Assembly (NCBI RefSeq): GCF_002954245.1
Contig: NZ_PPTG01000009.1
Location: forward strand, 62,001 to 126,000
DNA length: 64,000 bases
DNA from: Cryobacterium aureum
GTDB lineage: Bacteria; Actinomycetota; Actinomycetes; Actinomycetales; Microbacteriaceae
Reading direction: 5' to 3'
Shown here: positions 1-8,667 of the stretch, piece by piece
Layout: each line of letters starts with the position of its first letter
How positions within the stretch are numbered: position 1 is the first letter of the stretch
Translations under genes and position numbers: made by a program
The notes under the pieces: generated by a model
What the model was told of the DNA's origin: nothing
Database searches by the model: none
The model's input: only the letters and a program-made list of their open reading frames with translations

Positions 1-508
1 TCAGCGGAATCACAATGATGACCGTGAGGCCGCTCGCGAGGTCCTGCCAGGCAATGACCGCGATCAGAATGGGTGTAGCGATCATGGTCAGCAACAGTTG
101 CGGCAGGTAGCGGGCGAAGTAGTTGTCGAGCGCGTCGAGACCGGTCGTGACGACGGTCGACAGGCGCGCGCTCTGCTGGGAGGCGACCCAGTCCGGACCG
201 CGTTCGGCGAGCTTCACCATGACGCGGGCCCGCAGCTGGCTCTTCACCTGGGCGGCGCCGCGGTTGGCCGCAACTTCTAGCAGCCAGATGAGCACCGAGC
301 GCAGCACAACGACCCCGGCGAGGGCGGCCAGGGTCGGCATGATCGTGCTGAGCGGCTCGCCCGCGACGGTGAGCGTGATCGCCCGGGTCAGCAACCAGGC
401 GAACGCTATGACGACGAGGGTTTGCGCGAAGCCCAGCAGCGCGCCGATCAGAAGGAATCGGCGTGCTGCGTGGGCGTAACGAAGAAGACGAGGATCGAGG
501 GGACGCAC
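1..508 (-). CDS. cydD: CydD, thiol reductant ABC exporter subunit (5' part, truncated by window edge)
   Basis: This is the first 169 codons of an ABC exporter membrane domain, and the gene continues past the left edge. In the frame read leftwards an in-frame TAG lies shortly upstream. The GTG at 506-508 gives a start of MRPLDPRLLRYAHAARRF, followed by hydrophobic helices. CydDC exports cysteine and glutathione and is needed to assemble cytochrome bd. The gene follows cydB by 35 nt in the same direction, which is the usual actinobacterial cydABDC order. No good ribosome binding site is visible, so the start is tentative. The ATPase domain lies outside the window. Confidence 0.85.
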   Translation of the reverse strand, partial: MRPLDPRLLRYAHAARRFLLIGALLGFAQTLVVIAFAWLLTRAITLTVAGEPLSTIMPTLAALAGVVVLRSVLIWLLEVAANRGAAQVKSQLRARVMVKLAERGPDWVASQQSARLSTVVTTGLDALDNYFARYLPQLLLTMIATPILIAVIAWQDLASGLTVIIVIPL

Positions 509-543: not shown

Positions 544-1548
544 CTAGTGTGCGGCGACCTCAATCTGCGCCCGGCCGATGCGCTTGCGGAACACCCAGTA
601 GGTCCAGCCCTGATAGAGCAGAATGACGGGCATCCCGATCAGTGCGGTCCAGCTCATCACGCCGAGCGTGTACGTCGACGAGGAGGCGTTCGCGATGGTC
701 AGGCTGTTGGTCGCGTCGTTGCTGGCCGGCATGACGTCGGGAAACAGCGAGGCGAACAGGGTGAGTACGGCGAGACCGATGGTTGCGGCCATCAGGCCGA
801 AGGCGAGCCGTTCGGCACCGTGCAGGTTAGCCAGGAAGGAGGCGATCAGCGCGACTGCGGCCAGGGCTGCGAAGACAGCGGATGCCACGGTGCCGTACGC
901 AAAAGTCGTCCAGACCAGGAAGGTCGCCGCGACCACGATCGTCACGATGCCGGCCTTGGTGGCGAGCTTTCGCGCCCTGACCCGAATGTCGCCCTCGGTC
1001 TTGAGCGAGACGAAGACAACCCCGTGCACGAAGAACAGCAGCAGCGTGGTGACGCCGCCGAGCAGGGCGTAGGGGTTCAAGAGGTCAAAGAACGTGCCGA
1101 TGTAGTCGTGGTTGGCGTCGAGCTTGACGCCGCGCACGACGTTGGCGAAGGCGACGCCCCAGAGCAGCGCCGGAACGGCCGAGCCGACGATGATCATGCC
1201 GTCGAACCACTTCTTCCAGGTGGACTCGGGGCGCTGGTGGCGGTACTCGAATGACACACCGCGCAGGATCAGTGCAACGAGAATGAGCAGCAGGGCCAGG
1301 TAGAAGCCGCTGAACATGGTCGCGTACCACTCGGGGAACGCTGCGAACAGCGAGGCGCCGGCGACGATGACCCAGGTTTCGTTGAGGTCCCAGACCGGAC
1401 CGATGGTGTTGATGAGAACGCGGCGATCGGTGTCGTCCTTGCCGAGAAATGGCAGGGACATTCCGACCCCGAAGTCGAAGCCATCGAGCACGAAGTACCC
1501 GATGAACATGACAGCGATGATCCAGAACCAGAGAATGGTGAGATCCAT
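544..1548 (-). CDS. cydB: Cytochrome bd ubiquinol oxidase subunit II
   Basis: The product is 334 residues, the usual CydB length, and almost entirely hydrophobic, with an N-terminal helix followed by the conserved GYFVLDGFDFGVGM motif. CydB is the partner of CydA in the membrane-bound, high-oxygen-affinity quinol oxidase that reduces O2 to water. It starts at an ATG 21 nt downstream of the cydA stop, with GGGAA about 8 nt upstream, so the two subunits are co-transcribed. cydD follows. Expression should depend on the promoter and palindromes upstream of cydA. Confidence 0.97.
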   Translation of the reverse strand: MDLTILWFWIIAVMFIGYFVLDGFDFGVGMSLPFLGKDDTDRRVLINTIGPVWDLNETWVIVAGASLFAAFPEWYATMFSGFYLALLLILVALILRGVSFEYRHQRPESTWKKWFDGMIIVGSAVPALLWGVAFANVVRGVKLDANHDYIGTFFDLLNPYALLGGVTTLLLFFVHGVVFVSLKTEGDIRVRARKLATKAGIVTIVVAATFLVWTTFAYGTVASAVFAALAAVALIASFLANLHGAERLAFGLMAATIGLAVLTLFASLFPDVMPASNDATNSLTIANASSSTYTLGVMSWTALIGMPVILLYQGWTYWVFRKRIGRAQIEVAAH

Positions 1549-1569: not shown

Positions 1570-2982
1570 CTAGTAGACCGTGACAGATTGCTGGACGACG
1601 CCGGATTCGGCGCCCTGAGCCGGAGCATCGTCCGGGCCCTTCCGAACGGCCTTGAGGATGAGTTTGAACTCGACCACCGCGAGGATTCCGTAGAGCAGGG
1701 TGAAGACGATCAGTGAGATCAGAATCTCGATGCCGGTCACGCCGGGCGAGACGCCGTCTGCGGTGCGCATGAGTCCGAACACGAGCCAGGGCTGACGGCC
1801 CATTTCGGTGAACACCCAGCCGACGCTCATCGCGAGCAGCGAGAAGGGGAAGCTCCAAATCGCGACCTTCCACACCCAGGTGCGCTTCGGGCTACGCCCC
1901 TTGCGGGTCAGCCACAGGCCGACGACGGCGACGAGCATGTGCGCGAGACCGAGGCCGATCATCCAGCGGAACGCCCAGTAGGTGACCCAGATGGTCGGGG
2001 TGTAGTCGCCGGGGCCGTACAGGGTGACGTACTGCGACTGCAGGTTGTTGATGCCCTCGACCGTGCCGTCAAAGGTGTGGGTCGAGAGAAAGGAGAGCAG
2101 GTAGGGAATACGCACGGAGAACAGCTCGTGTACGCCGTCCGGCGTGCCGAGCGTGAAGACGGAGAAACTCGCATTGGCGCCCGTCGCCGTGTGATAGAGC
2201 GCCTCGGCCGCTGCCATTTTCATCGGCTGGGCGTCGACCATGACCAAGCCCAGCTGGTCACCCGCGAGGGTGGTGAGCACTCCGGCGATGACCATCATCC
2301 AGAGACCGAACTTAAGTGCGGGTCGCATCGTGTCGAGGTGCTGGTTGCGATAGAGGTGCCAGGCGGCCACCGAGATGATGAGTCCGCCAGACACCATGAA
2401 GCAGGCGAAGATCGTGTGCGGGAACGCGGCGAGAGCAATCGGGTTCGTGAGCAGTTCCCAGATGCTCGTGAGTTCGGCACGCCCCTTCTCCTCGTTGATG
2501 GTGTACGCGATCGGGTTTTGCATGAACGCATTCGCGGCAAGAATGAAATACGCCGACGTGATGGAGCCAACAACGGTCAGCCAAATCGTGGCCAGGTGAA
2601 CTTTTTTGGGGAGCTTGTCCCAGCCGAAGATCCATAGCCCGATGAAGGTCGCCTCGAGAAAGAACGCGAGAATTCCCTCAAAGGCGAGCGGAGCGCCGAA
2701 GACGTCACCGACGAAACGCGAGTAGTCCGACCAGTTCATACCGAACTGAAATTCCTGAACGATTCCGGTCACCACGCCCATGGCGACATTGATCAGAAAG
2801 ATCTTGCCGAAGAAGTGTGTCAGCTGCAGATATCGCGCCTTATCCGTACGCACCCACGCCGTCTGGAAGATCGCGACGGTGAGAGCCAGGCCAATGGTGA
2901 GTGGCACGAAAAGAAAGTGGTACATGGTGGTGAGACCGAACTGCCAACGTGCGAGGAGTAAAGGATCCAACCAGTCGTTCAT
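1570..2982 (-). CDS. cydA: Cytochrome bd ubiquinol oxidase subunit I
   Basis: CydA carries the haems and the quinol-binding loop of cytochrome bd oxidase. The ATG at 2982 is chosen because GGAGGG lies just upstream; it gives MNDWLDPLLLARWQFG and 470 residues. A longer frame to 3015 has no such site. Conserved features include an early WQFG...H motif (His about residue 22, a haem ligand in the family) and the late GWVFTEMGRQPW block that holds the haem b558 methionine region. The Q-loop is short, as in most actinobacteria. It is first in the leftward cydABD unit and divergent from the BlaI-type gene. Confidence 0.97.
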   Translation of the reverse strand: MNDWLDPLLLARWQFGLTTMYHFLFVPLTIGLALTVAIFQTAWVRTDKARYLQLTHFFGKIFLINVAMGVVTGIVQEFQFGMNWSDYSRFVGDVFGAPLAFEGILAFFLEATFIGLWIFGWDKLPKKVHLATIWLTVVGSITSAYFILAANAFMQNPIAYTINEEKGRAELTSIWELLTNPIALAAFPHTIFACFMVSGGLIISVAAWHLYRNQHLDTMRPALKFGLWMMVIAGVLTTLAGDQLGLVMVDAQPMKMAAAEALYHTATGANASFSVFTLGTPDGVHELFSVRIPYLLSFLSTHTFDGTVEGINNLQSQYVTLYGPGDYTPTIWVTYWAFRWMIGLGLAHMLVAVVGLWLTRKGRSPKRTWVWKVAIWSFPFSLLAMSVGWVFTEMGRQPWLVFGLMRTADGVSPGVTGIEILISLIVFTLLYGILAVVEFKLILKAVRKGPDDAPAQGAESGVVQQSVTVY

Positions 2983-3017
2983 ATGCCCTCCAGCATTTTT
3001 GTTCCAAGCACGCACTT

Positions 3018-3084
3018 TTCTACGCCGTGTAGAAGATTACACTTCTACACTGTGTAGAAATTAGTTTTTCTACGATTCGTAGAA
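3018..3084. promoter_or_regulatory. Three phased palindromic operators between cydA and the BlaI-type gene
   Basis: Three 17-bp inverted repeats of the form TTCTAC-N5-GTAGAA occur at 3018-3034, 3043-3059 and 3068-3084. Their centres are at 3026, 3051 and 3076, exactly 25 bp apart. The middle one, TTCTACACTGTGTAGAA, is a perfect palindrome. BlaI/MecI repressors bind inverted repeats with TACA/TGTA cores, and such a gene starts at 3106. Candidate -10 boxes sit between the repeats on both strands (for example TAATCT read leftwards at 3034-3039), so bound repressor could block both cydA and blaI. The repeats are seen directly; the binding protein is inferred. Confidence 0.8.
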
Positions 3085-3105
3085 GTATGCATTTAGCGGC
3101 GTACT

Positions 3106-3501
3106 ATGAAGAGCATGGGATCGCTGGGTGTACTCGAGAGACTGATGATGGACGTCCTGTGGGACTCTTCGACCCCGCTGACAGCCAATGAACTCAAGGA
3201 CTCTCTAACTCGTCCAAATGTGTCGGGTACCCCCACGAAGCAGCTGGCGACGACGACCGTTTTGACCGTACTGTCCCGGCTCGAAACAAAGGGCTTCGTC
3301 GCTCGTGACCGCAGCGTTCGCCCGCACGGCTACACCGCTGTCATGACTCGCGCCGCACACACTGCTGGTCTGATGCACGAGGTGCTTGGCCAGGTCCCCG
3401 ACCGCCAGGCGGCGCTGGCCCGGTTCATAGGCGATGTCACCCCACAGGAGGCCGAGACCCTGCGGCAGCTGCTCGGCGTCACGCCCAGGCACACCGCCTG
3501 A
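3106..3501 (+). CDS. BlaI/MecI/CopY-family transcriptional repressor
   Basis: The product is 131 residues, typical for the family, with an N-terminal winged helix that includes LERLMMDVLWDSS and the recognition segment TTVLTVLSRLETKGFV. BlaI-type proteins dimerise on palindromes and are usually inactivated by proteolysis triggered by a membrane M56 partner. That partner gene lies directly downstream. The ATG at 3106 has no clear ribosome binding site; an ATG at 3115 preceded by GAAGAG is an equally good start. The divergent cydA gene shares the operator region, so control of cytochrome bd as well as autoregulation is likely. No beta-lactamase gene is nearby. Confidence 0.9.
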   Translation: MKSMGSLGVLERLMMDVLWDSSTPLTANELKDSLTRPNVSGTPTKQLATTTVLTVLSRLETKGFVARDRSVRPHGYTAVMTRAAHTAGLMHEVLGQVPDRQAALARFIGDVTPQEAETLRQLLGVTPRHTA

Positions 3502-3526: not shown

Positions 3527-4522
3527 GTGATTACCGCCGCCGCCCTGCTCGGCGCCATCGCCGTACTGCTCGCCTGGCCGGTACCGCTCGTGCTCGCCCG
3601 CTCGGCCTGGCCGGCGCGTTCTCCAGCTGTAGCACTCGTACTCTGGCAAGCTATTGCATTGTCCGGCGGCATGTCCATGATTGGATCGCTGCTCGTCTAC
3701 GGCCTCGTTCCGTTCGGCGACGCACTGCCGCAGAGCATCGCCGCCCTGGGCGGCGATCTGCGAGCAGGCATCCTCCCCGCCGGCACGAGTTTCACCCATG
3801 TGCTCGCGCTCGGCGCGGCCATTCTGCTCGGCACGCACCTGCTGCTCAATCTGCTTGCGACCTTCGTGCGGGCCGAGCGGCAGCGCCGGCGTCACCACGC
3901 CCTCATCGCCCTCCTCAGCGACCCTCTGAACGGTCAGCCCGGAATGCGCGTCATCGACCATCCGGCACCGGTCGCGTACTGCCTGCCCGGGGCCGGGCAT
4001 TCGGCGACGGTCCTCTCGAATGGCCTGCTCCGGCTACTCGACGCCGATCAGGTGCGTGCGGTGATCGCGCACGAGCAGGCGCACCTCGTGCAACAGCACC
4101 ACCTGGTGCTGCTCGCGTTCAAGAGCTGGCACAGCGCCCTGCCCTGGTTTCCCATCGCCAACCGCGCCGAAAACGCGGTCGCCCTGCTGGTCGAGATGCT
4201 CGCCGACGATCATGCCCGCCGCATAGTTGACGACCACACCCTGGCCCGCGCGATCGCGCTCGTCGGCTTCACCCTAGCCGGCGCTATTCCCCCACCAGGC
4301 AGCGAAGCGGATGCTGCGGTCGCATCCCCTTCGCTGCCTGGCAGAGCGCGCTCTGGCAGAGCGCAACCGGCTGAGCCCGAGCATCCGGCGCACCAAGTCA
4401 TGCCGAGAGTGGCGCGGCTGATGAATCCGACCGTGCCGCTGGGCTACGCGGCCACGACCGGAGCACTCACCGTGTCAGCGGTGCTCCTGGCCGGGCCGGC
4501 GCTCATTCTGTTCGCTGCCTAG
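3527..4522 (+). CDS. M56-family membrane zinc metallopeptidase (BlaR1-type, no sensor domain)
   Basis: This is a 331-residue membrane protein with hydrophobic segments near residues 1-20, 33-60 and 90-115 and at the C terminus. The zinc site is HEQAH in VIAHEQAHLVQQHH, with a downstream EMLADDHA that supplies the likely third ligand. In BlaR1/MecR1 this domain leads to loss of the BlaI repressor. Here the protein ends after the peptidase region and has no C-terminal penicillin-binding sensor. The GTG at 3527 lies 25 nt after the blaI stop, and a frame open to 3434 would overlap blaI. What signal it senses cannot be read from the sequence. Confidence 0.85.
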   Translation: MITAAALLGAIAVLLAWPVPLVLARSAWPARSPAVALVLWQAIALSGGMSMIGSLLVYGLVPFGDALPQSIAALGGDLRAGILPAGTSFTHVLALGAAILLGTHLLLNLLATFVRAERQRRRHHALIALLSDPLNGQPGMRVIDHPAPVAYCLPGAGHSATVLSNGLLRLLDADQVRAVIAHEQAHLVQQHHLVLLAFKSWHSALPWFPIANRAENAVALLVEMLADDHARRIVDDHTLARAIALVGFTLAGAIPPPGSEADAAVASPSLPGRARSGRAQPAEPEHPAHQVMPRVARLMNPTVPLGYAATTGALTVSAVLLAGPALILFAA

Positions 4523-4533
4523 AGCAGAAGCAA

Positions 4534-5457
4534 CTAGACCAGCTTTTCCTTAGTCAGCCAGGCGGTCGCGATCTTGTCGGCCGACAGTTGGTCGTTGACG
4601 CTCTGCGAGTTCAACTGGACCAGCGTGTCCTCCGTGAGAGCCGCGCTGACCTTGTTGAGGATCGCTGCCGCAGTGTCATCGATCTTGTCGGAGACGACGG
4701 GCACGACGTTGGAGGGCAAGAACAGTGCGTCGGGGTCCTCCAGCACAACGAGGTTGCCCGATTCGAAGGCCGGACTCGCGGTGTAGATGTTGGCCAGCTG
4801 GATATCGCCGTCCTCGAGCGCCTTGACCGTGAGCGGGCCTCCACCATCCTCTACGGGCTTAAATCCAGCGGTCTCGATCCCGTACTTCTCCTTGAGGGCG
4901 GTCGGTCCGTAGGGGCGGGTTTCCAGTTCGGAGTTGCCACCGACGGTGATCGGCACGGTGACGTTGATGAGCGAGGCGATGTCGGTGAGGTTGTACTTGG
5001 TCGCGAAGTCGGCGGTGACCGTCCACGAGTTCTGGTCGGATGCTCCGGCCTGGTCGAGTACCCGGAGGTTGTCGGGCAGGGCGGCTTGGAGTTGCTCATA
5101 GGTCTCGTCGCTCGTGCCGCCGGCGGCGGTCTTGTCCAGCGCCTGCAGCAGGTCCCCAGTATATTCGGGGAAGACGTCGATCTTGCCGGCCTCGATGTCG
5201 GGCAGGTAAACCTCGCGCTGGCCGATCTGGAACTGTCGGTCAACGGTGAAACCGCCGGATTCCAAGGCTTGGGAGTAGATCTCCGCGATGATCTCGTTGG
5301 AGTAGTACGCCTGCGATCCGACCACGATGGTGGAGCTTCCGGCGCTACTCGATGGTTCCGCCAGGGGGTCCCCCGACGCACACCCTGCAAGGGCTACGAC
5401 GGCCCCAACCGCGACCACGCCGATGAGCGTGAGTCGGCCTCTATTTGCTGTGAACAT
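4534..5457 (-). CDS. Glycine betaine/osmoprotectant ABC transporter substrate-binding lipoprotein
   Basis: The 307-residue precursor has a signal peptide ending in the lipobox LAGC (Cys26), so it is a lipid-anchored binding protein. The mature part begins with the OpuAC/OpuBC-type sequence TIVVGSQAYYSNEIIAEIYSQ and contains PEYTGDLL, both typical of quaternary-amine binding proteins. It is the last gene of a four-gene leftward unit (ATPase, permease, permease, binding protein), and its ATG overlaps the previous stop by 17 nt. Osmoprotectant uptake is the likely role. The exact ligand (betaine, choline or carnitine) is unknown. Confidence 0.92.
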   Translation of the reverse strand: MFTANRGRLTLIGVVAVGAVVALAGCASGDPLAEPSSSAGSSTIVVGSQAYYSNEIIAEIYSQALESGGFTVDRQFQIGQREVYLPDIEAGKIDVFPEYTGDLLQALDKTAAGGTSDETYEQLQAALPDNLRVLDQAGASDQNSWTVTADFATKYNLTDIASLINVTVPITVGGNSELETRPYGPTALKEKYGIETAGFKPVEDGGGPLTVKALEDGDIQLANIYTASPAFESGNLVVLEDPDALFLPSNVVPVVSDKIDDTAAAILNKVSAALTEDTLVQLNSQSVNDQLSADKIATAWLTKEKLV

Positions 5458-6196
5458 GACTGTTTCCTTCCTTGATGGTGGGTTCCATCACCGGGCGGGA
5501 TCGGGATGACCCGTCACGGATATCTGTGGGGAGCCCCGCTGTGACGCCGCGGGGCACGACCAATTTTTGCACGAGAGCGAAGACGCCCTCCGACACGATG
5601 GCGAGCAGGATCACCAGGATCGATCCGCCGAGCATCTCGCCGTAGTCGCGGATTCGCAAGCCCTCGAAGAGGTAACGGCCCAGGCCGAAATCGGCGATGT
5701 AGGCGGCCAGGGTCGCCGTCGCCACCACCTGCAGGGTCGCCGAGCGAAAGCCGCCGATGAGCAGGGGCAGCCCGAGCGGCAGCTCGACCTTCTGAACGAT
5801 CTGGGCCTCTGACATGCCCACCGCTCGCGCAGCATCGATAATCTTGCGATCGATGGCCTCAAACCCGGTATAGGCACCGGCGAGGATGGGCGGAATGGCG
5901 AGCACGGTCAGCGCCACGTAGGGAGCGTTGAGCCCGATTCCCACCCACAGGCCGACCAGGGTGAGCAAGCCGAGGGTGGGTATGGCCCGGAAGGCGCCCG
6001 AGAGTGCAACGGCCAGCCCGCGGCCGCGACCGGTATGACCAATCAGAAAGCCGATCGGTACGGCAATCAGCGCGGCGACGAGCAGGGTCACGAGGGTGAA
6101 TAGCAGGTGCTGGGCGAGGCGGGTAGGTATCCCTCCGGCGCCAACCCAGTTCGCGGGATCGACCAGCCAGGCCAGGGTTTCGGTCAGGAAGCTCAT
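5441..6196 (-). CDS. Osmoprotectant ABC transporter permease (second)
   Basis: The product has 251 residues with five to six membrane segments and the EAA loop typical of binding-protein-dependent permeases (AARAVGMSEAQIVQKVELPLGLP). It belongs to the OpuCB/OpuCD/ProW group. The ATG at 6196 forms an ATGA overlap with the stop of the preceding permease, which favours this start over the longer open frame to 6262. It pairs with the neighbouring permease to form the channel served by the ATPase at 6876-7811. Confidence 0.92.
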   Translation of the reverse strand: MSFLTETLAWLVDPANWVGAGGIPTRLAQHLLFTLVTLLVAALIAVPIGFLIGHTGRGRGLAVALSGAFRAIPTLGLLTLVGLWVGIGLNAPYVALTVLAIPPILAGAYTGFEAIDRKIIDAARAVGMSEAQIVQKVELPLGLPLLIGGFRSATLQVVATATLAAYIADFGLGRYLFEGLRIRDYGEMLGGSILVILLAIVSEGVFALVQKLVVPRGVTAGLPTDIRDGSSRSRPVMEPTIKEGNSHVHSK

Positions 6197-6879
6197 GTGG
6201 AGACCTCCCGCGCGACGGCACCTGGTCGGGAAGCTCCGCCGACCGCGCTGCGCCGTGTCCACGGCATCAGCACCCGTCCAATCAGAACGAGTATTGCGTC
6301 GAGGGCCAGAGCAAGCAGCACGGTAGCAAGGGTACCCGCGATGATCTCCGCCTGGATTCCCCGTTGAAACCCGTCGGTGAACAGGCTGCCGAGGCTCGGA
6401 GCGCCGATCACCGCGCCGACCGTGGCCAGGCTCACCGTGCTGACCGCTACGACGCGCAAACCGGCCAGCAGCACGGGCCCGGCCAGTGGCAGCTCAACCT
6501 GCCAAAATGACGTCCAGCCGGAAAATCCAACGGCGGTCGCGGACTGCTGCACGTCGCGGTCGACAGAACCGAGACCATCCGCTACTACGCGCACCATCAG
6601 CGCCACCCCGTAGAGCGTCAGCGCGATGATCAGGTTCAGCGGCGAACGGATGCTGGTACCCACGATAAAGGGCAGCACGATGAACAACGGCAACGACGGA
6701 ATCGCGTAGAGCAATCCGACCGTGGTCAGAATGACCGCGCGGCTCGCCCGATACCGGTGTGCCAGCCACCCGAACGGCAGGGCGATGATGAAACTCAGGA
6801 TGATCGAAGGCACGCTAAGAATGAGGTGATCGAACGTGCGATCCCAAATGAGGTCCAGATTCGACCAGACCCAGGTCAC
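6193..6879 (-). CDS. Osmoprotectant ABC transporter permease (first)
   Basis: This is a 228-residue inner-membrane permease of the OpuCB/ProW type. It contains an EAA-like loop, VQQSATAVGFSGWTSFWQVELP, in the cytoplasmic segment. The GTG start shares a four-base GTGA overlap with the ATPase stop, and its own stop overlaps the next permease by four bases, so translation is probably coupled through the operon. Two dissimilar permease genes are normal for OpuC-type systems. Confidence 0.92.
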   Translation of the reverse strand: MTWVWSNLDLIWDRTFDHLILSVPSIILSFIIALPFGWLAHRYRASRAVILTTVGLLYAIPSLPLFIVLPFIVGTSIRSPLNLIIALTLYGVALMVRVVADGLGSVDRDVQQSATAVGFSGWTSFWQVELPLAGPVLLAGLRVVAVSTVSLATVGAVIGAPSLGSLFTDGFQRGIQAEIIAGTLATVLLALALDAILVLIGRVLMPWTRRSAVGGASRPGAVAREVST

Positions 6880-7811
6880 TGCGAGTCCCCACCCTGCGCC
6901 GAAGCACCCGGTGCGCGAAGACCGGCCTTTGACTTTTCGCTGGCCGACACGGTGCCGGCCGACACTGCGCCGGCCGCCGGGGATGCGGCCGTCGAGCGTT
7001 CGCCCACGAGAACACCGGCGAGACGCCCGGTTTCGTCGACCACGACGTCGCCATCCCCATAGTTCTCGACGTGCAGAGCTCGCTTGCCGCGATCGGCGCC
7101 GACAAACGTTGCCACGAACTCGTCAATTGGATTGGCCAGAATGTCGGCGGGCGACCCGACCTGGGCCACCTTGCCGCCGGTGCGCAGGATGACCACACGA
7201 TCGCCAAGCAGAAAGGCTTCGTCAATATCGTGAGTGACGAAGACCACGGTCTTGCCGAGTTCCTGCTGCAGCCGCAGCAGCTCCTGCTGAAGTTCGGCGC
7301 GCACGATCGGGTCCACCGCACCGAACGGCTCGTCCATCAGCAGAATATTGGGATTGACAGCGAGCCCTCGGGCCACGCCGACGCGTTGCTGCTGACCACC
7401 GGAGAGCTGGCTGGGATACCGGTTGGCGAGCGAACGGTCCAGTCCTACCGTATCGAGCAGTTGCAGTGCTTCATCTCGGGCCTTCTTCTTGGGCATTCCG
7501 CGCAGCATGGGCACCGTGGCCACGTTGTCGATCACCCTGCGGTGGGGTAGCAGCCCTGAATTCTGCATGACGTAGCCGATCCCGCGCCGCAGTTTGACCG
7601 GCTCGAGGGTAGCGATATCGGCTCCGTCGATCTCGATGGACCCGCTGGTCGGATCAACCATACGGTTGATCATTCGCAGCAGGGTCGTTTTTCCCGACCC
7701 CGACGTTCCAACGAAAACGGTGGTCTTGTGCGAGGGCAGAATGAGGCTGAAATCGTCGACGGCGAGGGTGCCGTCGGGGAACCGTTTGGTCACCGAGTGG
7801 AATTCAATCAT
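6876..7811 (-). CDS. Osmoprotectant ABC transporter ATP-binding protein
   Basis: The 311-residue protein has Walker A GTSGSGKT (about residues 35-42), the ABC signature LSGGQQQR, Walker B ILLMDEP and the switch histidine in FVTHDIDEAF. This is the OpuCA/ProV arrangement. The C-terminal part (from about residue 240) is short and does not look like the paired CBS domains of classical OpuCA, so osmotic gating through CBS domains may be absent. It is the first gene of the operon, and GAGGAG lies about 12-17 nt upstream of the ATG. Confidence 0.93.
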   Translation of the reverse strand: MIEFHSVTKRFPDGTLAVDDFSLILPSHKTTVFVGTSGSGKTTLLRMINRMVDPTSGSIEIDGADIATLEPVKLRRGIGYVMQNSGLLPHRRVIDNVATVPMLRGMPKKKARDEALQLLDTVGLDRSLANRYPSQLSGGQQQRVGVARGLAVNPNILLMDEPFGAVDPIVRAELQQELLRLQQELGKTVVFVTHDIDEAFLLGDRVVILRTGGKVAQVGSPADILANPIDEFVATFVGADRGKRALHVENYGDGDVVVDETGRLAGVLVGERSTAASPAAGAVSAGTVSASEKSKAGLRAPGASAQGGDSQ

Positions 7812-7944
7812 CCTGGTGGCTCGCTCCTCGCATCATCGGGTCAACACAAAGCAGATGCTAACCCAATCACTATTCGCGGCGACAGGCAAAACAGATTGCG
7901 CAGAAAGATTTATCCAACAGCGAACACGCGAAGCCCCCAAACCC

Positions 7945-7977
7945 AAAAAAGCCGGGCGACCCCGTGGGTCGCCCGGC
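7945..7977 (-). terminator. Rho-independent terminator of the TetR gene
   Basis: A perfect 12-bp stem (7951-7962 with 7966-7977) and a 3-nt loop is followed, in the leftward direction, by six T residues (A run at 7945-7950). It begins 12 nt after the TetR stop codon. It also insulates the osmoprotectant operon from read-through. Confidence 0.9.
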
Positions 7978-7989
7978 TCGTGACGCCCT

Positions 7990-8667
7990 TTAGGACGCGG
8001 TTGCCAGCAGGTTCAGCGCTTGCGGGCTATAGAAACGATCGAGGTAGTCACGCAGCACCAGGCGGCACTCGGCGATGAAACGCTCGTCACCGAGCGGATC
8101 GGTGTGGAAGGCGCGGGCGAGCAGCGCGTCGGCCATCTCGACGGCGACTTCGAGTCGAAAGATCAGGTCATCGCCGGCCGGCAGATCGAACTCGTTGACG
8201 AGCACGTCAGCGAGGCGGCGGGCGAAGAAATCGGCATCCGCTACGGCGTCGACGGCGGGAGCGCCATCGCGGTCGTCGAAGTTCACGATGCGAAAGCCAG
8301 GCTCGGATCGGTAGAGGCCAACAAAGGCCGTCACGACGCAATCCACGGCGTCCCACCAGGAGGTGAGGGTGCTGGCTCCGAGCTCGTCGACGACCCGCTG
8401 CCGAAAACGCACAACGGCGCGCTCGTGCAGGGCGTGCAAAACGGCCACCCGGTCTGGATAGTAGCGATACACCGTGCCAATAGAGGCACCAGCCCGTTCG
8501 GCGATCATCGCGGTCGTGATGCGGTCGAAACCGACCTCGTCCACAACGGCGGCGGCCGCATCGAGCAAACCGGACAGACGTGCAGCGCTGCGCTGCTGAA
8601 TCGGCTCGGTGCGCACTTGCTGAAGTGCTGCACCGGTCTCTTCACCCAATAGGCCACCAAGCGACAT
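7990..8667 (-). CDS. TetR/AcrR-family transcriptional regulator
   Basis: The product is 225 residues. The N-terminal helix-turn-helix spans about residues 42-75 (ITTAMIAERAGASIGTVYRYY), the signature of TetR repressors. The C-terminal ligand domain is not specific enough to name an effector. The ATG at 8667 is preceded by GGGGG about 4-9 nt upstream. It is a monocistronic gene with its own terminator at 7945-7977 and is divergent from the App1-type phosphatase at 8765. That gene, or the regulator itself, is the most likely target, but no convincing palindrome was seen in the 97-nt gap. Confidence 0.92.
   Translation of the reverse strand: MSLGGLLGEETGAALQQVRTEPIQQRSAARLSGLLDAAAAVVDEVGFDRITTAMIAERAGASIGTVYRYYPDRVAVLHALHERAVVRFRQRVVDELGASTLTSWWDAVDCVVTAFVGLYRSEPGFRIVNFDDRDGAPAVDAVADADFFARRLADVLVNEFDLPAGDDLIFRLEVAVEMADALLARAFHTDPLGDERFIAECRLVLRDYLDRFYSPQALNLLATAS

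Follow-up and report, generated by a model that had tools for sequence, protein, structure and literature searches.

Putative BlaI operators connect a BlaI-type repressor and a BlaR1-like protease with cydABDC and hmp in Cryobacterium aureum and related Microbacteriaceae

The BlaI-type repressor of Cryobacterium aureum quite likely has its operators in three perfect palindromes between its own gene and the divergent cytochrome bd genes cydABDC and in a fourth copy before a flavohaemoglobin-type gene (hmp), the repression being relieved by a BlaR1-like membrane protease. The locus is part of the window, i.e., the whole stretch of 64,000 nucleotides that was analysed. BlaI and BlaR1 are textbook regulators of antibiotic resistance, and a preliminary description of the locus had linked the palindromes with the BlaI-type protein and with control of cydABDC rather than of a beta-lactamase. 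Comparative sequence evidence favours this core of the interpretation, namely, the co-occurrence of the palindromes with BlaI orthologues, their presence at cydA genes whose blaI lies elsewhere (L044, L045, and L241), and the fourth copy at hmp; taken as a whole, the interpretation is partly supported.

Results

The inverted repeat TTCTAC-N5-GTAGAA occurs in three exact copies in the window, exactly where the preliminary description had placed them: dyad 1, TTCTACGCCGTGTAGAA, next to cydA (positions 3018 to 3034), dyad 2, TTCTACACTGTGTAGAA (3043 to 3059), and dyad 3, TTCTACGATTCGTAGAA, next to blaI (3068 to 3084), all without strand assignment and each a putative BlaI operator. Their centres at 3026, 3051, and 3076 are separated by two steps of 25 bp, and the array forms a 25-bp direct repeat. 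It is located between the start of cydA on the minus strand (2982) and that of blaI on the plus strand, which is either the ATG at 3106 or the ATG at 3115, where most orthologues begin; a consensus scan of positions 2940 to 3140 found no sigma-70-like promoter. The TACA/TGTA dyad named for the family in the preliminary description is not supported as such, the core here being TAC-N5-GTA. From base composition, 0.0006 exact dyads are expected per 64 kb, versus three observed, and 0.04 in the 4.31-Mb genome, versus four observed. Only the exact dyads stand out in the genome, because matches with up to two mismatches are rarer (90) than those of a reversed control pattern (162). Additional sites with one or two mismatches in this genome were rejected for the same reason; the three one-mismatch dyads are all situated inside open reading frames (ORFs).

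The dyads differ in their conservation within the genus. Among 15 Cryobacterium loci, a set that includes the window and in which species may be repeated, the equivalent of dyad 3 is exact in all 15 (N5 identity of 37%) and that of dyad 2 is exact, at a step of 25 bp to dyad 3, in 11 (N5 identity of 40%), while a third copy equivalent to dyad 1 is present in 1 of the 12 named Cryobacterium loci (L180). Because the arms were located by exact matching, their identity of 100% is not an independent measurement. The spacing is more variable than the constant 25-bp step of the preliminary description, which is true for the window and falls within the commonest distance of 24 to 25 bp, but is not conserved in relatives. 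Adjacent dyads up to 30 bp apart are 17 to 26 bp apart in the 58 family loci with cydA, window included (24 to 25 bp in 21 of 42 pairs), and 18 to 27 bp apart in the best 80 of at least 577 named loci (24 to 25 bp in 62 of 77 pairs), with some species common to both sets. Abutting dyads 17 bp apart were found at a cydA locus of another family (L313), and some family loci have two dyads 42 to 56 bp apart. An exact 25-bp phase was thus rejected as a conserved law; since the steps span 17 to 27 bp, the step of 24 to 25 bp is a preference, which is compatible with cooperative dimers but no proof of them.

The presumed target cydA (1570 to 2982, minus strand) encodes cytochrome bd subunit I (PF01654, E = 2.6e-161) and is accompanied by cydB for subunit II (544 to 1548, minus strand; PF02322, E = 1.9e-108) and then by cydD and cydC. 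Just the start of cydD, named by position and sequence, falls within the window (1 to 508, minus strand), from which the gene runs off; the whole cydD (L006, 4833 to 6509) and cydC (L006, 3140 to 4840) are ORFs that were assigned by sequence. On the other side of the dyads, the plus strand carries the gene of the BlaI-type repressor (3106 to 3501; 131 amino acids; PF03965, E = 1.1e-18) and that of a BlaR1-like membrane zinc metalloprotease (3527 to 4522; 331 amino acids; Pfam M48, E = 1.5e-10). The two genes form a tight pair elsewhere too, compared with a gap of about 1.3 kb at L119 (6259 to 8634). Beside the pair, positions 4534 to 8667 contain ORFs resembling an osmoprotectant-type ABC transporter and a TetR regulator, as judged by sequence only, and this cluster may share the BlaI-type regulator, because a comparable pair of TetR and ABC genes has a dyad upstream at L073.

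The repressor belongs to the BlaI/MecI/CopY family according to its winged-helix domain Penicillinase_R (PF03965; 68.1 bits, cut-off of 22.6) and is the sole match to this domain in the genome at E ≤ 0.001. Its best match in the PDB, by both sequence and fold, is 2G9W, i.e., BlaI (Rv1846c) of Mycobacterium tuberculosis, followed in fold by MecI and BlaI of Staphylococcus aureus (mean pLDDT of the model, 77.4). The closest named protein among the matches listed is BlaI of Cryobacterium suzukii, with 92% identity. CopY-type repressors have a metal-binding cysteine motif. A copper repressor of this type was rejected, since the window BlaI matches the NCBIfam equivalog CopY_TcrY weakly, at 21.8 bits and below the cut-off of 121.95, and its sequence contains no cysteine.

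The preliminary description had expected an M56-type partner, and the adjoining gene does encode a protein that is BlaR1-like in fold, a moderately supported assignment, whereas Pfam names the family M48 (STE24/HtpX). A search of its sequence against the PDB returned nothing usable, and its fold was therefore searched (mean pLDDT of the model, 91.4). BlaR1 was the first Foldseek match (E = 6e-3), with none at E ≤ 0.001, and VIA-align gave a Z score of 10.8 for S. aureus BlaR1 (211 residues, rmsd of 5.0), nearly equalled by STE24-type folds (10.5). The match covers the transmembrane and protease part of BlaR1 and stops at BlaR1 residue 292, with one further helix; the model ends about where BlaR1 continues into the penicillin sensor, a domain that was not found in the window protein. 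The protein is a transmembrane metalloprotease with an HExxH motif and a distal glutamate: it has five hydrophobic stretches, two of them overlapping, the model shows long helices, and H182, E183, H186, and E223 as well as Cys152 are invariant across 50 sequences. Relatives are 228 to 346 amino acids long.

Of 150 genomes of the family, 67 contain the exact dyad, 114 contain cydA, and 59 hold an orthologue, defined as a BlaI at least 50% identical to that of the window. The dyad is present in 55 of the 59 genomes with the orthologue and in 12 of the 91 without it (Fisher's exact P = 4e-24, a value that serves as a guide only because the genomes are related). At 58 of the 59 orthologue loci cydA is divergent from blaI, and a search for the same dyad upstream of cydA in relatives, as the preliminary description had advised, found it in exact form at 55 of these 58 and within one mismatch at 57. 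The three remaining loci with orthologue and cydA (L114, L115, and L116) have no exact dyad, two of them having a one-mismatch version, and at L133 the orthologue has neither cyd genes beside it nor a dyad. Seven of the 12 genomes with a dyad and no orthologue have it at a more distant blaI (G059, G069, G083, G128, and G131) or at cydA (G072 and G135); in the other five (G005, G013, G061, G092, and G095), a single dyad is found at neither gene. Four loci without cydA (L076 to L079) have dyads at more distant blaI genes. As a control, 20 cydA genes were examined in genomes without the orthologue, out of about 55 and mostly from near the top of the score list rather than at random. None has an exact dyad, and 18 reach 4 to 6 mismatches, the usual level for shuffled sequence. 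The exceptions, with one mismatch (L168) and two mismatches (L178), are both from genomes with a more distant BlaI; three further control genomes (G121, G024, and G067) have such a BlaI and no dyad at cydA.

The arrangement extends from Cryobacterium to Arthrobacter. In the best 80 of at least 577 confirmed matches, which are hence the most similar ones, cydA is divergent from blaI at 78 loci, and the protease gene and a dyad at blaI are present at all 80. The dyads persist where the genes are separated. In Arthrobacter sp. AL12 (L241), a distance of 3.8 kb separates cydA, with two dyads, from blaI, with one, and at L044 and L045 three and two dyads, respectively, precede a cydA without an adjoining blaI. 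The unlinked BlaI proteins of the latter genomes (43 and 42% identity) have a one-mismatch dyad at their genes. A cydDC-type gene has a dyad of its own at L058, and a lone blaI (L293) has a single dyad upstream. Where a BlaI of 45% identity is found beside cyd (L140 and L141), it is paired with the diverged dyad TACTAC-N5-GTAGTA.

The fourth exact dyad of the genome (L007, 5239 to 5255) is located about 83 bp before the start of hmp, whose product has the Pfam globin, FAD, and NAD domains and scores under the NCBIfam flavohemoprotein cut-off. The pairing of dyad and hmp recurs in all three genomes of the genus that were searched (L007, L040, and L041). With all four exact dyads of the genome located before cydA/blaI or hmp, no beta-lactamase or PBP2a gene was found under the operator. 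At L007 the dyad follows an Rrf2-type gene that is NsrR-like, although below the cut-off, and a perfect palindrome, TTGGTATACCAA (5214 to 5225), lies between the dyad and the hmp start codon; it may be the site of the Rrf2-type regulator because the gene of the latter adjoins, in which case hmp may be under double control.

The preliminary description had named cydABDC as the target, to which the dyad-bearing genes of relatives add a considerably wider set. In orthologue genomes, 29 loci have dyads away from the cyd-blaI spacer, counting the site before cydDC (L058) and leaving out five further dyads (four in G007 and one in G090). Respiration- or energy-related genes are found at 17 of the 29, a raw count that is not scaled to gene content. 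They comprise hmp (L007 and L066, and by tblastn L040, L041, L059, and L060), atpB (L052 and L064 by Pfam and L070 by sequence likeness), pta (L063, and by likeness L069 and L071), an operon containing a gene similar to copper nitrite reductase, though short of the NCBIfam cut-off (L062), and a locus sharing its first gene (L065), a NarK-like gene, likewise short of the NCBIfam cut-off, that lies opposite Moco genes (L068), ctaC-ctaD (L053), and cydDC. The ATP synthase operon is thus preceded by a dyad in three relatives, whereas the window genome has no exact dyad at this operon. The other 12 loci are not evidently respiratory or not nameable and include adenosine deaminase (two, one by Pfam), pyrophosphatase, PPK2, a DUF1254 gene followed by pta, regulators, other genes, and sites within ORFs.

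In an order-wide sample, the dyad was found in 47 of 248 genomes (12 from the family of the window, 16 from family f6, 13 from family f7, and 6 from others). Seven f6 and f7 genomes provided 40 loci, or 38 after removal of one blaI (L293) and one cydA (L313), and 15 of the 38 have respiratory, haem, or energy genes, again as a raw count not scaled to gene content: hemQ-type genes of the chlorite dismutase family (L290, L307, L322, and, by blastp, L329), hmp (L306 and L314), ctaC (L302), a ctaB-type UbiA gene (L304), SURF1 (L297), ctaG (L315 and, by blastp, L319), ResA-CcdA-type operons (L300, with ResB, and L308), an ABC-ctaA operon opposite sufB (L294), and a QcrC-type cytochrome c after COX3 (L326). 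The genes at the other 23 are not evidently respiratory or not nameable and include isocitrate lyase, PEPCK, universal stress proteins, PPOX-type flavoproteins, and unnamed membrane proteins. Across the f6, f7, and family remote loci, some from genomes without the orthologue, 70 of 77 remote dyads are situated outside ORFs or close to ORF starts, versus 1 of 30 copies of a control palindrome with identical composition; these 30 are from 40 matches in genomes mostly chosen for holding the palindrome, and many look like orthologous coding places rather than independent ones. The genes were called with a simple script based on ORFs and GC periodicity that can miss starts, and the seven remote dyads in called ORFs include the hmp locus L041, whose ORF call is doubtful.

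Several of these loci contain genes that merit a separate mention. An unnamed small membrane protein without a Pfam match has a dyad upstream in two families (L292, 2630 to 3028, and L318, 2658 to 3074; 50% identical), adjoins isocitrate lyase at one locus and PEPCK at the second, and is a candidate new regulon member. In two more families of unnamed membrane proteins, each seen in two genomes, the dyad is immediately upstream of the gene (L316/L317, 88% identical; L324/L328, 54%). In two small genomes without a cyd-linked BlaI orthologue (L042 and L043), one exact dyad each, at about position 4400, is flanked on one side by a gene for a copper chaperone of the PCu(A)C type and on the other by an nrdH-type gene with nrdIE-like ORFs, Pfam naming being available for L043 only. 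The 2.7-Mb genome G217 (L290 to L304) holds 15 exact dyads and no copy of the control pattern; its blaI adjoins a gyrase or topoisomerase-type gene, as assigned by sequence, and no cyd gene is present within the 5 kb read.

Discussion

The most plausible mechanism is that BlaI dimers bound to the three dyads would repress cydABDC together with blaI's own operon, both presumably co-transcribed units, and that the fourth operator would mediate the repression of hmp. By analogy with the protein family, the BlaR1-like protease would then inactivate BlaI, probably by cleavage, whereupon cytochrome bd and hmp would be released. The protease most likely perceives a disturbance of respiration or of the envelope via its transmembrane part, because a penicillin-binding domain is absent. 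Cytochrome bd and flavohaemoglobin are classically deployed against nitric oxide and when the main oxidase fails. That the nameable targets share the respiratory chain and its poisons suggests that the signal may be respiratory; envelope stress, which the preliminary description had tentatively linked to respiration, is another candidate.

Other explanations of the palindromes have to be weighed against this. The dyads might merely autoregulate blaI and the protease gene, with cyd as an incidental neighbour, a reading that accommodates the single dyad of the lone blaI and the fact that the divergent genes of the window share one spacer; dyads at cydA with blaI elsewhere, before cydDC, and at hmp throughout the genus genomes searched make it very unlikely. 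If the dyads were bound by another regulator than BlaI, one that governs cyd as well as blaI, this would account for the 12 of 91 genomes that have dyads without the orthologue, five of them away from blaI and cydA (e.g., L042 and L043). The strong co-occurrence with BlaI, the dyads at more distant blaI genes without cydA, and the dyad variant that accompanies diverged BlaI proteins speak against such a regulator, and we regard it as rather improbable. Although the palindromes are three perfect inverted repeats, hairpins or terminators in RNA are hardly credible: positions 2940 to 3140 contain no terminator-like site, which led to the rejection of terminators, the loop bases vary freely, and the sites precede genes on either strand.

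More weight is due to a beta-lactam or cell wall stress system as in mycobacteria, in which the respiration genes would be secondary. The same protein families are involved, and the mycobacterial BlaI/BlaR system is described in connection with the beta-lactam response together with cytochrome bd and ATP synthase targets (PMC5473688). Yet no beta-lactamase gene is found at any of the four exact dyads in the window genome, the protease has no penicillin sensor, and respiratory, haem, and energy genes form the largest nameable target group elsewhere (17 of 29 loci and 15 of 38), which renders this explanation unlikely.

The gene rv1456c of M. tuberculosis was reportedly identified as a BlaI target by Sala and colleagues in 2009. 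Published work describes a protease partner without an extracellular sensor (BlaR, Rv1845c) and the binding of mycobacterial BlaI to promoters of cytochrome bd (PMC5473688), its control over the operon for ATP synthase (PMC12565901, PMC5874750), and its repression of Rv1303, which is co-transcribed with that operon (PMC12565901). With mycobacterial BlaI tied to ATP synthase and cytochrome bd in these papers, the kind of link proposed here is already known. The Rv1846c/Rv1845c pair resembles the present one in containing the closest solved relative of the repressor and a sensor-less protease, and the atpB dyad of three relatives of the window fits the comparison; in contrast to the M. tuberculosis regulon, which is described with blaC and the beta-lactam response, blaI is found here beside cydABDC at 58 of 59 family loci, dyads are also located at hmp, cytochrome c oxidase, haem, and cytochrome assembly genes, and the exact dyads of the window genome are not at a beta-lactamase gene. 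The staphylococcal BlaR1-BlaI and MecR1-MecI systems share the winged-helix repressor fold and a metalloprotease with BlaR1 as the best fold match, but differ by their penicillin sensor, by the TACA/TGTA dyad that the preliminary description names for the family in place of the core TAC-N5-GTA, and by resistance instead of respiratory targets. A functional analogue only is HrrSA of Corynebacterium glutamicum, which regulates haem biosynthesis and respiratory chain genes including the choice of terminal oxidase (PMC7337898) and is, unlike BlaI, a two-component system that answers to haem.

BlaI control of cyd in Micrococcales was not found in the open-licence literature searched, and the available parts of PMC8265638 and PMC10581053 contain nothing on it. 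The same literature did not yield the defined operator, its position at cydABDC across Micrococcales families, the sites at hmp, haem, and oxidase assembly genes, or the cases of separated genes.

Because the same operator precedes many respiratory chain, haem, cytochrome assembly, ATP synthase, and acetate genes, the pair of BlaI and protease is probably a regulator of respiration in related genera. A broader proposal can be advanced only tentatively, as its chances are somewhat less than even: in Microbacteriaceae and related Micrococcales, BlaI with its sensor-less BlaR1-type protease may be a global regulator of the respiratory chain and haem biogenesis that uses regulated proteolysis to read the state of respiration or of the membrane, beta-lactam resistance being a side branch of this system. 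With equal reserve, its scope might comprise cytochrome bd, bc1-aa3, cytochrome and haem assembly, nitric oxide detoxification, ATP synthase, and acetate overflow. Judging from the operator, its spread, and the targets that can be named, the chief concern of this lineage would be respiration. If this is true, it would fit the reported link between mycobacterial BlaI, ATP synthase, and cytochrome bd and would provide a candidate respiratory master regulator for Micrococcales, and the signal of the sensor-less BlaR-type proteases would become directly testable via cydA or hmp reporters.
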